Positions 47,121-53,145 of a stretch of 64,000 bases of DNA are shown in pieces (position 1 is the first letter of the stretch; each line of letters starts with the position of its first letter). This DNA is from Ignavibacteriae bacterium HGW-Ignavibacteriae-1 (lineage in GTDB: Bacteria; Bacteroidota; Ignavibacteria; Kapaibacteriales; UBA2268). The translations under genes and the position numbers were made by a program. The notes beneath the pieces were generated by a model. That model did no database searches and was not told the origin of the DNA. It saw only the letters and a program-made list of their open reading frames with translations. Location of the stretch: the NCBI GenBank assembly GCA_002839825.1, contig PGYU01000003.1, positions 1-64,000 on the forward strand, written 5' to 3'.

Positions 47121-48512
47121 CTATTTTCTAAACTTTGATATAAACTCTTCAACTTCGGGGATGCCGCCTTGATAGACAAGATAGCCGTTTGAAGGCTCTC
47201 TATCAGTGGTTTCACCGTTGATTGGGTCTAACATAATTGATTTTACTTTTTCCAAATCCGAACTTTGCCCCAAAGCCCAACAAAGTTTCATGTAGGCAAC
47301 TTCGGGAAGCATGTTTGCAGTAGGTACAACACCGAGGTCCATCATTTCACGACCTGTCTCGTAAACGTACATTTGGACATAGCCCCAAAGCGTTTGAACG
47401 GTCATGTAAACTGCAACACCTTTATCTTTCGCTCTTTTCAGCGCAGGATAAAGCGGCTTGTTGACGTGACCAAGTCCGGTTCCGGCAATCACAATGCCCT
47501 TATATCCCGAATCAATCATCGAATCAATCATATCGGGCATCATATTGGGATAATAATAGACCATCCCTACTCTTTCCTCAAAATATGGAGCCAAAATGAA
47601 ATTATTGTCAGTTCTGCGGCGCTTGTAATCTTGTCTGAGCGGAGAAATTTTATTCCTGTCAATCATTGCCAAGGGTATATCTCCAATTGTGCGGAAAGTT
47701 GAGCGATATGACGAGTGCATTTTACGAACTCGAGTTCCGCGATGCAGTAATCCGTAAGAATCTGACGTAGGTCCGAACATACAAACCATAACTTCAGCAA
47801 TATCACTTTCTCCGGCTGCTTTGACAGCATGAATCAAGTTCAATGCAGCATCCGATGATGGTCTGTCGGACGAACGTTGCGAACCAACCATGACGATGGG
47901 CACAGGTGAATTTTGAATCATGAACGATAAAATAGCTGCAGTATGGTGCATTGTATCAGTACCATGACCGATTACAATGCCTTTTACGCCCTTTTCAATT
48001 TCTTTAGCGATTGCATTTGCAGTGCCAATCCATTGTTCGGGACCCATATTTTCGGAAAATACGCCGTAAAGTTTTTCTGTTTCTAAGTTGCAATAGTCAG
48101 CTAATTCAGGGACAGAACCGTAAAGCTCGCCCGGTGAAAATGCCGGAATTACAGCACCTGTACGATAATCCAAACGACTTGCGATAGTACCGCCGGTGCC
48201 AAAAAGTTTGACGCGTGGTTTGCCTTTGTCATAGGGAAACGCCTTTTCAGGGATTTTGTAATTTGCTACTTTGCGACCTTTGATTACAATTGAGGAAATT
48301 TTATCGGCTCTGATACCAATATTATAACCTGTTGCCATTTTCAAAACTAAGTGCAATTTATCTGCGGTTTCGGAGCGTGGCAAAATTATACCCGAATATT
48401 TTGAACCTTCGGAAGTTTCGACATCAATATCGCTCCACACGAAAGCACCCCATTTCTTCATTACATCGAGCGTAATGCTGCTGTATCCTTTGAATAATTC
48501 CTTATCTTCCAT
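47121..48512 (-). CDS. gatD: Glu-tRNA(Gln) amidotransferase subunit D (asparaginase-like)
   Basis: 463 residues. The N-terminal beta domain typical of GatD (about 1-95, SGIILPR ... LHLVLKMATGYNIGI) distinguishes it from plain asparaginases. The type I/II asparaginase catalytic domain follows: LFGTGGTIASRLDYRTGAV near 108 (first Thr nucleophile), GIVIGHGTDTMHHTAAIL near 184 (second Thr, Asp; the Lys follows in the usual order) and VMVGSQRSSDRPSSDAA. GatD releases ammonia from Gln or Asn, which GatE uses to convert Glu-tRNA(Gln) to Gln-tRNA(Gln). It overlaps gatE by 11 bp. A 21-bp repeat unit (48399-48419) is read in frame as ETSEGSK in the N-terminal domain. Confidence 0.9.
   Translation of the reverse strand: MEDKELFKGYSSITLDVMKKWGAFVWSDIDVETSEGSKYSGIILPRSETADKLHLVLKMATGYNIGIRADKISSIVIKGRKVANYKIPEKAFPYDKGKPRVKLFGTGGTIASRLDYRTGAVIPAFSPGELYGSVPELADYCNLETEKLYGVFSENMGPEQWIGTANAIAKEIEKGVKGIVIGHGTDTMHHTAAILSFMIQNSPVPIVMVGSQRSSDRPSSDAALNLIHAVKAAGESDIAEVMVCMFGPTSDSYGLLHRGTRVRKMHSSYRSTFRTIGDIPLAMIDRNKISPLRQDYKRRRTDNNFILAPYFEERVGMVYYYPNMMPDMIDSMIDSGYKGIVIAGTGLGHVNKPLYPALKRAKDKGVAVYMTVQTLWGYVQMYVYETGREMMDLGVVPTANMLPEVAYMKLCWALGQSSDLEKVKSIMLDPINGETTDREPSNGYLVYQGGIPEVEEFISKFRK
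48399..48419. repeat. Palindromic repeat unit inside gatD
   Basis: 21 bp containing GAACCTTCGGAAGTTTC, identical to 46893-46913. It is translated on the minus strand as ETSEGSK just before the YSGIILPR strand. Confidence 0.75.
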
Positions 48513-50439
48513 TACTCATCTCCGAATTTAATAAACTTGAAACCATTTCGCTAACCATTTTTCCGTCCACTCTGCCTCTTAAGTCGTCCATTATTATTCC
48601 CATCACGATTTCGTATTTTTTCTCGGGATTGATTAATGTTATATGATTGATTTGCTTCATTGCCATACCTACGCGAATATTAATTTCTTCATCAGTGCAT
48701 GGGCTCGGCAATTTTGATTCATCAATCTCGCCATTACGCAAAAACATATCCAAAGCTATTAGTACTGCATCTTTTAGAATTTTTCCTGATGAATAAAGTT
48801 TGAAAACTTTTTCAAACTCATCGTGAGTTAATTTTTCAATTGGCAAACCACGTCTGCGTAATCTTTTTGGATATTGGATAATCGCCGAGGCAACAAAAAC
48901 CGGGTCTAAGTTGAAAGGTTCGGCGATTAGCAACTCGAAAGATGGAGCAAATCTTGAAACAGCCAATTCTTCGAGCAAGTCATCGGGAACGCCGAGCTTA
49001 GTATATTTTTGGGTACGAATCCAAATTTGTTCGGGTGCTCTGGCACGAATAAGTTTCTTTCTTTCATCGGTGATTGGCTTAGGCGGCAAATCGGTATCGG
49101 GATACATTCTTTCGGGTCCGGGCAAAATCCTTTCAAAACCATTGGTTCCGTCCGGATATGCTTGACGAGTTTCAGAAGGTATGCCAATTGTAGCTTCGCG
49201 GGCACGAATGATAATTTCATTTGCTCCCATTAATGCATCAGCGTCATCGCCCCAAACTAAGATAAGAGCATCATCGGCAGTTACGTTCATAAATTTCTTG
49301 AGTGCCACCCATTCTGCCGATGCGAGTGTTTCGCTGATATTATCGGAATGGATAATATTTGGCAATGTTGTAAGGCAAGCAATTACGCGGACTCTATCCG
49401 AAATTTCTTTAGAAAAATAAGTATCAGTTTGAGTTTGCCATTTCAAATAACCTGCAAATCCGTCAAGTTTGACACAATTAACCTTGAAACCATTATGAAT
49501 AGCATCGGCAATAGGTTTGAAGTGAGTCTTCTTAATAATTTTAGTCACATCTTCGAAATTCGCTTTGAAAGTATCCGGAGTTATGCCTTTATTAGCAAGC
49601 GACTGCCTCATTCTGAGCAAATTCCATTGTCTCATAGCTTCGTTGTATGTCAACAGAGGAATTCGTTTAATACTCGGGACACCTTTGATTTCTATACGTG
49701 TGCCGCCCGTAACGCTGACATTTACGTCTTCGCGTCCTGCGCCAACACCTGTACGAACTCTACCGGTTGAACGAACTAATCTGCGGAGAATTTGATTTAC
49801 TTCAGCCACTTCCTGAGGTGTCTTCATCTCGGGATAAGTGACGGTTTCAATCAAGGGCATACCCAATCTATCAGTCAAATAGACTCTTCTATGCCCAACG
49901 TCACTTGTTTCGCGGCATGAATCTTCTTCGATTGACATTTGAATAATATTGATATATCTGTCTTTATATGGTATCCTTCCGCCTACACTTGTGATTGCGG
50001 TACGTTGAAAACCTGTCGGGATACTTCCGTCCAGGTATTGCTTACGTGCAATGTGGAGTTCGTCCACAATATATGCATCGTAGAGCATACCAACTTCAAT
50101 CGCAATATCAAGCGCTTGCTCGTTAATTTGAAACGGCGGCGTGTCGTCCATTTCGTAAGTACATACTGTATCATAATGGATACGATATATAATATCCTTC
50201 TTGGTTTTAAATTCCATCAATGCAGTACCATCATACTCGCCAAGCTCCGACAAAGTCGGACGCATATGCCGAAGGATTTCGGCATTGTATGATTTTTGAT
50301 ATTTGCCTGCCGGACAACGACAAAACAATTTCTGGTCTGTCAGTAATTGTTGATGCACTTCGAGCCCGGACATGAAACCTACGCGAGCGTAGTCTTCGGG
50401 GGTCATCTCATCAAAGGGTTTAAATTCAAAATCGTACAT
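48502..50439 (-). CDS. gatE: Glu-tRNA(Gln) amidotransferase subunit E
   Basis: 645 residues from the ATG at 50439, which follows GAGGG at 4 nt; an ATG six codons upstream lacks a ribosome site. The GatB/GatE kinase-like catalytic core has GFMSGLEVHQQL near 20, CRCP, MDDTPPFQINEQALDIAIEV near 95, RKQYLDGSIPTGFQRT, IEEDSCRE and the GatE-type VRTGVGAGREDVNVSV-GGTRIEIKGV near 235-262. A GatE-specific AspRS-like insert (about 280-430) and a C-terminal YqeY-like tail (about 500-645) follow; both the insert and the length exclude GatB. First gene of the gatE-gatD operon. A -7 box TAATTTTG lies at 50498-50505. GatDE is considered the archaeal enzyme, so its presence here is exceptional. Confidence 0.9.
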   Translation of the reverse strand: MYDFEFKPFDEMTPEDYARVGFMSGLEVHQQLLTDQKLFCRCPAGKYQKSYNAEILRHMRPTLSELGEYDGTALMEFKTKKDIIYRIHYDTVCTYEMDDTPPFQINEQALDIAIEVGMLYDAYIVDELHIARKQYLDGSIPTGFQRTAITSVGGRIPYKDRYINIIQMSIEEDSCRETSDVGHRRVYLTDRLGMPLIETVTYPEMKTPQEVAEVNQILRRLVRSTGRVRTGVGAGREDVNVSVTGGTRIEIKGVPSIKRIPLLTYNEAMRQWNLLRMRQSLANKGITPDTFKANFEDVTKIIKKTHFKPIADAIHNGFKVNCVKLDGFAGYLKWQTQTDTYFSKEISDRVRVIACLTTLPNIIHSDNISETLASAEWVALKKFMNVTADDALILVWGDDADALMGANEIIIRAREATIGIPSETRQAYPDGTNGFERILPGPERMYPDTDLPPKPITDERKKLIRARAPEQIWIRTQKYTKLGVPDDLLEELAVSRFAPSFELLIAEPFNLDPVFVASAIIQYPKRLRRRGLPIEKLTHDEFEKVFKLYSSGKILKDAVLIALDMFLRNGEIDESKLPSPCTDEEINIRVGMAMKQINHITLINPEKKYEIVMGIIMDDLRGRVDGKMVSEMVSSLLNSEMSNGR

Positions 50440-50760
50440 ATCACCCTCGTTATTCATATAGTCATTATAAATATATAAGTGTCAAAATATAGAAAAGCAA
50501 AATTACGAAATTTTTGGCATATTTATGACATTTTAGTCATTTTTATCTTTAATCAATAAATTTATGACATTTGTTCATAGTTTAAGTATGATTAATTTTA
50601 ACTTTATTGTTATCTAAATAACTTTATTTTGCATTTTTTTCATCTTTTTTGTGATAATTTTATTTATTTTCTTGCATAGTACAATTTTATTTATTAATTT
50701 TACATGAACGATAAGGAATATTATAAATAAGTTCTTATAAATTTGACGAAGGTGTAGGAT
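50440..50760. promoter_or_regulatory. Divergent region between gatE and the multihaem cytochrome
   Basis: About 320 bp, very AT-rich, no ORF supported. ATTTATGACATTT occurs twice in direct orientation (near 50521 and 50561), a possible regulator site. Candidate -7 boxes: TAATTTTG leftward at 50498-50505, TAAATTTG rightward at 50738-50745; no exact -33 partner for either. Confidence 0.35.
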
Positions 50761-52110
50761 ATGAACAAAATCCATCTCTTTATTATTGCTCTTACAACAG
50801 TCTTTCTGTTTATAGCAAGTTGCTCTGACGATGATCCGTCGAACAACAACAACAACAACGAAAGTGTAGCATCTTGCGAAGGTTGCCACACAAATTACGC
50901 TCATCTCAAAGCTGTAGCTAAGCCATATGTTGACCCGGGTGGTGGCGGATGCGGTGGCGATGTCCCCCACATCGAAGTCTATGACGCTGTCTATCTTGGT
51001 GGTGAAGGATTTGAAGAATACAAAAAATCAGAACATTACAAGTTGGATTGTATTGCTTGTCATAACGGTGTTGACGAAACTGACGACAAAGCCATTGCTC
51101 ATGGTGGCGATTTTGTTGCCAAACCATCTCAACATGCTGAGGAAAAATGTTCTACATGTCATGAAGACATAGTTGCAGGGCATACAAACAGTTTGCATCA
51201 GCAAGGTTGGGGGCAAAAACGAAAAGTTACAATGCGTTCAGGATTGAGTGGAGCGCACGAATTCTCCAAATTATCTTTCGAAATGCAACAAGGATATGGT
51301 AAAAATTGTGCTACTTGCCATGCAAGTTGCGGTGATTGCCACGTCAATCGCCCTCATGCGTCAGGTGGCGGATTGATGGCAGGACACAATTTCAGCAAAG
51401 AACCCGACATGCTAAACACATGTATCGCTTGCCATAAAACTCGCGGGGGTCACGCATTTTTAGGTGTAGCACCCGGCACAAAGCCTGACGTACATCAGAC
51501 CAAGGGAATGACATGCACAAGTTGCCACAGCCAAGAAGAAATTCACGGTGACGGCACAACGGTAGAACATCGCTATGCTTATTCAAAACTTCCCGAATGT
51601 ACAGACTGCCATTCGGATATTGCCGGTAAAAATAACTACCATAGCATACATATGAACACATTTAATTGCCAAACTTGCCATTCGCAAAAATATAACAGTT
51701 GCGGCAGTTGCCACGTTGGCGGTGAAGGTGTCAGAATCACTTCATATCAAGATTTCAAAATTGCTATGAATCCAATTCCGAATGATAAGCCATACAAATT
51801 CGCTCTTGTGAGAAGAACGCCCGGAGCACCTGATACATTCGAGAAATTCGGCACACCAAAATATTCAAACTTTGAAGCATTTCCGACATATAATTACACA
51901 ACACCCCACAACATATTGCGTTGGACTGAAGTCACTCAAGTTGCTTCAGGGAAAAATTGCGGCGACAATTGCCACATCAAAAAAGAAGACGGCACATTCC
52001 GCAATAAGAAACTTTACCTTTTTGAAGAGGATTTGTTAGAATGGGAAGTTAAAGCAACTAAACCAATAACTGTTGACGGTAAATTGCCAGCAAGTTGGGA
52101 AGTTCAGTAA
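50761..52110 (+). CDS. Multihaem c-type cytochrome lipoprotein
   Basis: 449 residues; lipobox with Cys21 (IASC) then SDDDPSNNNNNN linker. Ten CXXCH motifs are visible: CEGCH, CIACH, CSTCH, CATCH, CGDCH, CIACH, CTSCH, CTDCH, CQTCH and CGSCH. An eleventh site has the unusual CX3CH spacing (CGDNCH) near the C-terminus. Further His residues are available as distal ligands. It is an extracytoplasmic electron-transfer protein, possibly a reductase of a sulfur or nitrogen compound. It is followed 45 bp later by a lipoprotein with two rhodanese domains, pointing to sulfur chemistry. Ribosome site AAGG. Confidence 0.9.
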   Translation: MNKIHLFIIALTTVFLFIASCSDDDPSNNNNNNESVASCEGCHTNYAHLKAVAKPYVDPGGGGCGGDVPHIEVYDAVYLGGEGFEEYKKSEHYKLDCIACHNGVDETDDKAIAHGGDFVAKPSQHAEEKCSTCHEDIVAGHTNSLHQQGWGQKRKVTMRSGLSGAHEFSKLSFEMQQGYGKNCATCHASCGDCHVNRPHASGGGLMAGHNFSKEPDMLNTCIACHKTRGGHAFLGVAPGTKPDVHQTKGMTCTSCHSQEEIHGDGTTVEHRYAYSKLPECTDCHSDIAGKNNYHSIHMNTFNCQTCHSQKYNSCGSCHVGGEGVRITSYQDFKIAMNPIPNDKPYKFALVRRTPGAPDTFEKFGTPKYSNFEAFPTYNYTTPHNILRWTEVTQVASGKNCGDNCHIKKEDGTFRNKKLYLFEEDLLEWEVKATKPITVDGKLPASWEVQ

Positions 52111-52155
52111 TAGTATATAATTATCTTTTTTTTTAAATTACAAGGAGTAAAAACC

Positions 52156-53145
52156 ATGTTGAACAGATTTTCAAAATTCTTCGCTATTTTATTAGCAATC
52201 GTATTCGTCGTTTCATGTTCCGATGATGACACAACAACAACGCCAACGATAAACGAAGGCGAATTGATGATTAAGTATATCGAGGCAAACGGCGACTATG
52301 TGAACACATACTTACCTGCCTTAATCACTGCAAGTGATTTGCATACGCTAAACCAAACAGGTAAAGCTTATATCATTGACTTACGTGCTGATACAGACTT
52401 CGCAACCGGACACATCAAGAACGCTGTAAACGTAAAATTGGCAGACCTACTTACTCATATCAAAACCATTGATATGACAAAATACGACAAAGTCGCATTA
52501 GTATGCTACACAGGTCAAACAGCAGGCTTCGCAACATCTTTGATGAGATTTATGGGTTATGACAAAGTTGTTGACCTGAAATTTGGTATGAGCTCATGGC
52601 ACAATGACTTCGCTGCAAAATGGAAAGGCGCAATTGGTAATTCATATGCTTCACAATTCGTGAATACACCAAGCCCTGCAAAACCTGCAAAAGGCAATTT
52701 ACCGGTACTTACTACTGGCAAAAAGACAGGCAAAGAAATCTTAGAAGCACGCGTTCAAGCATTGCTCACAGAAGGTTTTGGAGCTGCCGGCATCACTGCT
52801 CAAGCAACTTTCCAAGAATTGAACAAATATTATATAGCGAACTATTGGACAGAAGCACAATATCTCGACCCGGGACATATCCCCGGTGCCATCCAATACA
52901 CTCCAAAAGAAAGCTTGAAATATTCAGTTGACTTGACAACATTGCCGACAAACAAACCAATCGTCATCTATTGCCACACAGGAACACAAAGCTCAATGCT
53001 TGCTGCATTCCTCAGACTTTTGGGCTACGATGCAAAATCATTGCTCTATGGTGCTAATTCAATGATTTACGACCAAATGGTTGCAAAAAATATGAGCATC
53101 TGGAAAGACGCAGAAATCAAAGGTTTAGACTACGAAAAACCCTAA
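52156..53145 (+). CDS. Lipoprotein with two rhodanese domains
   Basis: 329 residues; lipobox VVSC near 21 then SDDDTTTTP. Rhodanese domain 1 (about 60-160: YIIDLRADTDFATGHIKNAV, active-site loop VCYTGQT) and domain 2 (about 195-315: HIPGAIQY, active-site loop YCHTGTQ). Both keep the nucleophilic Cys, which is unusual because in many tandem rhodaneses only the second does. Rhodaneses transfer sulfane sulfur from thiosulfate or polysulfide. An extracytoplasmic partner of the preceding multihaem cytochrome is a fair inference. Ribosome site AAGGAG. Confidence 0.9.
   Translation: MLNRFSKFFAILLAIVFVVSCSDDDTTTTPTINEGELMIKYIEANGDYVNTYLPALITASDLHTLNQTGKAYIIDLRADTDFATGHIKNAVNVKLADLLTHIKTIDMTKYDKVALVCYTGQTAGFATSLMRFMGYDKVVDLKFGMSSWHNDFAAKWKGAIGNSYASQFVNTPSPAKPAKGNLPVLTTGKKTGKEILEARVQALLTEGFGAAGITAQATFQELNKYYIANYWTEAQYLDPGHIPGAIQYTPKESLKYSVDLTTLPTNKPIVIYCHTGTQSSMLAAFLRLLGYDAKSLLYGANSMIYDQMVAKNMSIWKDAEIKGLDYEKP

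Follow-up and report, generated by a model that had tools for sequence, protein, structure and literature searches.

An archaeal-type GatDE amidotransferase in a member of the Ignavibacteria whose genome also has a complete GlnRS, and its relatives in many bacterial phyla

Why should a bacterium carry the amidotransferase by which archaea make Gln-tRNA(Gln) from Glu-tRNA(Gln)? The question is raised by the first 64,000 nucleotides (hereafter the window) of contig PGYU01000003.1 of Ignavibacteriae bacterium HGW-Ignavibacteriae-1 (assembly GCA_002839825.1), in which two overlapping genes, gatE and gatD, encode the subunits of GatDE. In the portions available of the sources cited here and below, GatDE is described in archaea only (PMC8007984), is said to be found now only in archaea, all species of which lack glutaminyl-tRNA synthetase (GlnRS; PMC9499178), and is assigned to archaea as GatCAB is to bacteria (PMC7373986). 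An earlier note made from the letters of this DNA took the genes for a real GatDE in a bacterial chromosome, with gatE overlapping gatD. We find that it is one, that its host also has a complete GlnRS, and that the larger result is one of breadth: an enzyme regarded as exclusive to archaea is present across many bacterial phyla, usually alongside GlnRS.

The identity of the pair was assessed with curated family models, solved structures and a structure prediction (Table 1). GatE exceeded the cut-offs of both GatE models (NF003107, 525.9 bits, cut-off 456; TIGR00134, 458.1 bits, cut-off 319.55) and stayed below the cut-off of every GatB model listed (at best 136.4 against 338 bits), and GatD exceeded those of TIGR02153 (509.9 bits, cut-off 324) and NF003217 (506.2 bits, cut-off 310). 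GatD also passed TIGR00519, a broader model for the subfamily of type I asparaginases (387.4, cut-off 260.5), because a type I asparaginase domain is its core, and failed the models of plain asparaginases (type II, 160.8 against 314.3; PRK11096, 143.3 against 506; PRK09461, 136 against 376). Pfam assigns GatE a GatB_N domain and a YqeY-type tail; in GatD it recognizes GatD_N (PF18195, 48.3 bits, cut-off 25.7) and both asparaginase domains. The closest solved structures are the archaeal GatDE entries 1zq1 (Pyrococcus abyssi) and 2d6f (a tRNA(Gln) complex, which we take to be from M. thermautotrophicus), and they align across nearly the full length of both proteins: residues 22-644 of GatE align with 9-628 of 1zq1_C, taking in the catalytic cradle, the inserted domain and the YqeY-like tail, and GatD scores 400 bits against 1zq1_A. 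An AlphaFold model of GatE, built from 32 sequences of the window and the named loci described below (mean predicted local distance difference test score, pLDDT, of 87), had 1zq1_C as its top PDB match (E 4e-50) with 2d6f also found and GatB structures ranking behind, and the identity to archaeal GatE in this search was 31-36%. The GLEIHQQL and EED motifs are conserved in GatE, and the GatD motif residues T109, T185, D186 and K264, whose roles we presume from the asparaginase family, are invariant in all 25 aligned GatD sequences.

These results confirm that the pair in the window is a real GatDE heterodimer, encoded intact, in which GatE is not GatB and GatD is not a plain asparaginase. GatE has the GatB/GatE catalytic domain, the YqeY-like tail and, putatively, the reaction in common with the GatB of GatCAB; it differs in failing the GatB cut-offs and in separating from GatB in a tree at 100/100, on the archaeal side, which answers the concern of the earlier note that it might fall within GatB. 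GatD likewise has the core and the T/T/D/K motif residues of type I asparaginases and is set apart from them by GatD_N, by its scores against the GatD models together with its failure at the asparaginase equivalog and type II cut-offs, and by the adjacency of gatE in most loci. Relative to archaeal GatDE both subunits, the full-length alignment and the motif residues are alike; the differences are about 10-20 extra N-terminal residues in the present GatE, a separate clade in the GatE tree, and a host that has GlnRS and tRNA-Gln with U1-A72/G73. The 11-bp overlap of gatE and gatD would be consistent with a single transcript. As an alternative to the gatE start in Table 1 (ATG at 50457), an in-frame ATG at 50439, the end given by the earlier note and the point at which several homologues begin, gives a protein of 645 residues.

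Table 1. Position of the gatDE genes in the window and the models and structures that identify them.
Feature	Position	Strand	Length	Evidence
gatE, Glu-tRNA(Gln) amidotransferase subunit E	48502..50457	-	651 aa	NCBIfam NF003107/TIGR00134, PDB 1zq1_C and 2d6f_C, AlphaFold model
gatD, subunit D, GatD_N and asparaginase domains	47121..48512	-	463 aa	TIGR02153/NF003217, PF18195, 1zq1_A and 2d6f_A
Overlap of gatE end and gatD start	48502..48512	-	11 bp	Open reading frame coordinates

Does the host depend on this enzyme? A search of its genome for glnS and gatCAB, as proposed in the earlier note, identified a complete GlnRS (G000:C25, 796.5 bits, cut-off 425.8) and no GatB, the only protein with the GatB/GatE domain being this GatE; one bacterial glutamyl-tRNA synthetase (GluRS) and one asparaginyl-tRNA synthetase (AsnRS) over the cut-off are also encoded. 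Because a complete GlnRS is present, GatDE is not the only route to Gln-tRNA in this genome and is at most a second one, and the suggestion of that note that the pair serves as the route in this lineage is not supported; its alternative, that the pair supplements the route, may hold. Its further proposal, to inspect gltX for signs of a non-discriminating enzyme, was uninformative: the arginine equivalent to R358 of T. thermophilus GluRS, which we take to bear on discrimination, is present in all 41 class GluRS, including ten from genomes without GlnRS, and as it is found everywhere it says nothing about discrimination here. Among the 37 tRNAs found are two tRNA-Gln genes (CUG and UUG), and both have U1-A72 and G73; by these identity elements, which the earlier note had asked to be checked, they are of the bacterial, GlnRS type and not the archaeal one. 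U1-A72 is present in only three of the 37 tRNAs, tRNA-Asn and the two tRNA-Gln; A1-U72 occurs in tRNA-Trp only, and tRNA-Glu has G1-C72 and A73. The host thus has neither the archaeal-type substrate (A1-U72, A73) among its own tRNA-Gln nor the lack of GlnRS seen in known hosts, features that are traits of the archaeal substrate and of those hosts and not of the protein family. The discriminator of tRNA-Gln is given as A73 in archaea and G73 in bacteria (PMC9499178), and Glu-tRNA(Gln) amidotransferases are reported to depend on U1-A72 (PMC9976931).

The window is far from alone. With presence of GatE, GlnRS, GatB and AsnRS taken as a match over the curated model cut-off, and GatCAB judged by GatB alone, 30 of the 395 genomes tested in the phylum have GatE, and every one of them belongs to the window's class; seven of the nine genomes of the window's family have it, and it is absent from the 25 genomes listed from the rest of the order. 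A scan of named genomes gave at least 552 GatE-encoding stretches, of which the best 80 were analyzed. Of these, 79 are titled as bacteria or bacterial groups of more than ten phyla and one as a Thermoplasmata archaeon, the titles being those of the submitters and bins being open to misnaming: Ignavibacteria, Kapabacteria, Aminicenantes, Phycisphaerae and other Planctomycetota, Neomarinimicrobiota, KSB1, Cloacimonetes, Krumholzibacteriota, Fermentibacteria, CSSED10-310, Gemmatimonadetes, Latescibacterota, WOR-3, Acidobacteria, Myxococcales, Bacteroidales and others. The other 472 stretches presumably include archaea. In one further phylum, that of genome G407 (locus L111, titled Neomarinimicrobiota), GatE is present in 25 of 199 genomes; one of its members, G532, has two GatE genes over the cut-off. 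A search of viral contigs returned 63 pattern matches and no GatE relative, and a search of plasmids identified a distant GatB and, on one Natrinema megaplasmid, a GatE split into two parts that lie in different frames, and no GatD at E 1e-60. Among the matches listed from the open-licence literature, no title or abstract start reports a bacterial GatDE; in the portions available, the mentions of GatDE in PMC4206432, PMC13047044 and PMC12283126 are entries in reference lists, and that in PMC8001834 refers to the enzyme of archaea. In databases whose annotation relies on these models, bacterial genes of this kind may well carry the label already.

In the class, gatD lies by gatE in 29 of 30 loci (27 whole and two cut by the edge of the locus), the remaining locus stopping at a contig end, and in the named loci gatD is directly downstream of gatE in 63 of 80, with another arrangement in three. 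In 14 named loci no gatD was present in the DNA examined; four of these (L110, L126, L137 and L154) have 6 kb of room downstream, and their gatD may be elsewhere in the genome. The two genes evolve together, as evidenced by a Pearson correlation of 0.91 between pairwise identities (74 loci). With reading frames antisense to gatD or gatE excluded, no neighbor family besides gatD was found in more than five of the 80 named loci, so there is no conserved operon partner but gatD and no sign of a different pathway.

The distribution of GlnRS bears directly on an extreme form of the question, whether the window's organism makes Gln-tRNA(Gln) mainly or solely through GatDE. The class sample comprised 68 members tested for GatE, GlnRS and GatB. 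The 30 with GatE comprise 19 with GatDE, GlnRS and GatB, eight with GatDE and GlnRS, three with GatDE and GatB, and none with GatDE alone; one of the three without GlnRS, G251, has only a 67-position GlnRS match. The 38 without GatE comprise 17 with GlnRS and GatB, 17 with GatB and four with GlnRS. In a named sample of 50 GatE-bearing genomes out of 80, picked to favor groups outside Ignavibacteria, GlnRS was present in 42 and GatB in 16, and in the 25 GatE-bearing genomes of the phylum of G407, GlnRS was present in 20, with a large partial match in one more. Taken together, 103 distinct genomes with GatE were tested, and GlnRS exceeds the cut-off in 88 of them (27/30, 42/50 and 20/25 with duplicates removed, namely G407, in two sets, and G400, which is G066).

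We consider it very improbable that the window's organism relies on GatDE in this way. Its lack of GatB would fit such reliance, as would five of the 50 named genomes that have neither GlnRS nor GatB (G407, G413, G415, G417 and G426). Its own genome, however, has a full-length GlnRS and GlnRS-type tRNA-Gln, none of the 30 class genomes with GatE has GatDE alone, and draft bins account for all five exceptions. The GlnRS search, in which GluRS usually appears at a weak score, returned nothing at all for G413, G415 and G426, and a GatB fragment of 91 residues is present in G426. Moreover, of six controls in which neither GatE nor GatB had a match, two were also without GlnRS. Because gaps in drafts alone yield such cases, no bacterium with GatDE as its sole route is demonstrated; G407 was not accepted as proof for this reason, and a loss of GlnRS in G403 is not claimed, as the seemingly truncated gene sits at a run of N. 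Six further genomes of the phylum of G407, with GatB-like matches and without GatE, had no GlnRS.

Where did the pair come from? Contamination with archaeal DNA or a chimeric contig, which the earlier note had named as a danger, is an explanation of negligible probability. The genome is a 3.23 Mb draft in 43 contigs, which is what could be said for it; it is 98.84% complete and 0.5% contaminated, the GC content of the gatDE genes (0.411 and 0.425) is close to the mean of 40 open reading frames (ORFs) in the window (0.398), and their codon usage, which ranks 23 and 25 among the 40, is ordinary. Two relatives in the same family have GatE 72% identical to that of the window, the nearest neighbors of the window's GatE in the tree are bacterial without exception, and presence across the class refutes an artefact. 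The ordinary composition also makes a recent transfer unlikely, and this candidate was set aside. The closest named GatE, among the best 80 of at least 552, carry the titles Ignavibacteria and Candidatus Kapabacteria. The class takes in Melioribacteraceae, the GatE of G066 being identical to that of Melioribacteraceae bin SCALA702 and the coordinates of GlnRS and GatB identifying the two as one genome. Judged by these GatE kin and the class label, the host would be a Kapabacteria-like relative of Ignavibacteria.

The GatE tree, rooted on GatB, used 55 of 97 rows, with four archaeal rows and none from Thermoproteota, Asgard or DPANN. Rooted in this way (100/100), the GatE rows split into two clades, one of three archaeal GatE, namely the two PDB chains and part of the Natrinema gene (100/97), and one that unites every bacterial row with the archaeal bin L127 (97/96). 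The placement of L127 among bacteria is not settled, as forcing it with the other archaea was not rejected (approximately unbiased, AU, test, p 0.082). Within the bacterial clade, phyla are mixed: GatE of Aminicenantes and CSSED10-310 are interspersed with those of Ignavibacteria, the phylum of G407 is represented in at least three places, and GatE of the class member G156 is in a Bacteroidales-type group (100/100), away from its own family. On the tree of GluRS from 41 class genomes, GatDE requires 12 changes, GatB seven and GlnRS two, and the 12 are as expected of an accessory gene. The mixture points most readily to lateral spread between bacteria, the gatDE pair apparently having often been gained or lost and having crossed phyla as a unit; the window's lineage may have received it from other bacteria or by inheritance. 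Of the inter-domain transfer proposed in the earlier note, the archaeal affinity of GatE thus stands, and a single transfer into this lineage is too narrow for a pair that has spread and been exchanged across phyla.

An old bacterial inheritance, for example from the last universal common ancestor (LUCA) with loss in most bacteria, would be an alternative to an archaeal gift and is compatible with the function proposed below. We regard it as rather unlikely: bacterial GatE forms a deep, diverse clade apart from the three euryarchaeal GatE, and the idea of GatDE in LUCA has been reported (PMC9499178), whereas the patchy distribution, the 12 changes and the phylum-crossing positions favor lateral spread, and L127, with the AU value given above, falls among bacteria.

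What, then, would GatDE do in a cell that has GlnRS? We think it probable, judging from sequence, that it is a working accessory Glu-tRNA(Gln) amidotransferase. The asparaginase site of GatD would free ammonia from Asn or Gln for transfer to GatE, which would bind Glu-charged tRNA-Gln, activate the glutamate with ATP and convert it to glutamine. GlnRS would charge tRNA-Gln directly, and GatDE would most likely rescue Glu-tRNA(Gln) arising from imperfect discrimination by GluRS, or provide a second route under some conditions; the two-gene unit would have passed between bacterial phyla since an old exchange with archaea. The comparisons given here establish the identity and architecture of the pair, its motif residues, the presence of GlnRS, the spread, and the joint inheritance of the two genes; from them we infer the activity, the substrate, the rescue role and the archaeal origin. 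In Thermus, Deinococcus and Bdellovibrio the product of GatCAB is thought to be Asn-tRNA, and GatDE is expected to be Gln-specific; the present case differs from theirs in being an AsnRS-bearing genome with a presumed Gln-specific GatDE. What is shared is an amidotransferase kept despite direct synthetases, GatCAB standing beside GlnRS and AsnRS in those genera (PMC4206432).

A link to tRNA-Gln itself comes from the neighborhood of some gatE genes. Aragorn identified four tRNAs in the 80 named loci (847 kb), three of them within 170 bp of gatE: a bacterial-type tRNA-Gln(CUG) with U1-A72/G73, divergent and about 120 bp upstream of gatE (L144:5795-5866, in a bin titled Deltaproteobacteria); a tRNA-Gln gene in the archaeal bin L127; and a tRNA-Glu(CUC) about 170 bp upstream (L117:5756-5832, in a bin titled bacterium). 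The fourth, a tRNA-Val in L120, is 4.2 kb from gatE, and the window's own gatDE has no adjoining tRNA gene. The tRNA-Gln adjacency, seen in few loci and noticed after the fact, ties bacterial GatDE to tRNA-Gln. In one bin the tRNA-Gln reads A1-U72 with G73.

The adjacency also bears on the alternative that bacterial GatDE has been repurposed and amidates Asp-tRNA(Asn), another aminoacyl-tRNA or a target outside translation. Such a change of substrate would accord with the presence of GlnRS in most hosts tested and with tRNA-Gln genes in the window's genome that lack the archaeal A1-U72 and A73 and have U1-A72 in common with tRNA-Asn only. We nevertheless hold it to be unlikely, given that motifs and domains are kept, that there is no widely common new neighbor and that tRNA-Gln genes adjoin gatE in L127 and L144. 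For Asn-tRNA in particular, AsnRS is over the cut-off in 63 of 71 genomes tested and in all eight class genomes with GatE but without GatB, the window's included; because AsnRS is present, GatDE is not needed for Asn-tRNA, and the supply of Asn-tRNA was rejected as its reason.

Several points weigh against an accessory, Gln-specific enzyme. Published GatDE, which in archaea contacts A1-U72 and the D-loop of tRNA-Gln (PMC9499178), reads A1-U72, and with the U1-A72/G73 of the window's own tRNA-Gln the enzyme must have adapted or have another substrate. The tRNA adjacency is found in just three of 80 loci and was spotted post hoc. Independent pairs, of which too few are informative to reach significance, give no sign that GatDE is associated with either GlnRS or GatB once phylogeny is taken into account, leaving the rescue idea without comparative support from these tests; Fisher tests over the 68 class genomes, which ignore kinship, gave p 0.003 for GlnRS and p 0.11 for GatB. 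The five named genomes with neither GlnRS nor GatB, finally, would suit an essential role there.

The window's family offers a series of states in which GatDE can be followed. G109 has GatCAB only; G287 and G314 have GatCAB and GatDE without GlnRS; the window's genome, G160, G196, G389 and G357 have GatDE and GlnRS without GatB; and G369 has GlnRS only. In the GluRS tree the six members with GlnRS cluster together, separately from those with GatB, although the support (92/69) is not strong. One well supported GatE group (100/98) joins the window's sequence and those of G389, G160, G287 and G314 with Kapabacteria- and Ignavibacteria-titled bins. The tree position of the GatE of G357, 44% identical to that of the window, suggests a separate acquisition; one family clade was not rejected by the AU test (p 0.233) and the branch is long, and this candidate was not adopted. 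The series fits GatDE having been present before GatCAB was exchanged for GlnRS. Because all steps of the exchange are seen in this family, we tentatively suggest, as a possibility short of an even chance, that GatDE is a widespread bacterial tRNA quality-control enzyme beside GlnRS, one that acts on tRNA-Gln of bacterial type, mends Glu-tRNA(Gln) and bridges exchanges of GatCAB for GlnRS.

The distribution matters beyond this family. Reviews have used an archaea-only GatDE in arguments on LUCA, on the co-evolution of GatDE with archaeal tRNA-Gln and on the absence of GlnRS from archaea (PMC8007984, PMC9499178), GatDE being thought to have co-evolved with a tRNA-Gln that has A1-U72 and A73 (PMC9499178). 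The occurrence of GatDE in many phyla, together with GlnRS and a bacterial tRNA-Gln, overturns the claim of an archaea-only distribution, opens the co-evolution argument to a test that needs one enzyme and two tRNAs, and raises the question of why a GlnRS-bearing cell keeps a second enzyme for Gln-tRNA.

Several minor observations concern the surroundings of gatE. In four of the 80 named loci a related gene is divergent and just upstream of gatE (L129:5005-5706, L133:4707-5405, L135:49-765 and L136:5028-5753), and the first 90 residues of a member of the same cluster, 5 kb off in L089, resemble the redox repressor Rex at scores below curated cut-offs. A family of ORFs of about 447 codons lies some 1.8 kb upstream of gatE in five of 80 loci (L082, L085, L086, L091 and L095), all in bins titled Ignavibacteria-type or Bacteroidetes, and is by eye perhaps of PIN/PhoH type. 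In the window itself, the other strand beside gatDE has an ORF (50761-53145) that matches cytochrome c models weakly and in which several CxxCH-like motifs can be picked out by eye; it is followed by an ORF with two rhodanese-type stretches.

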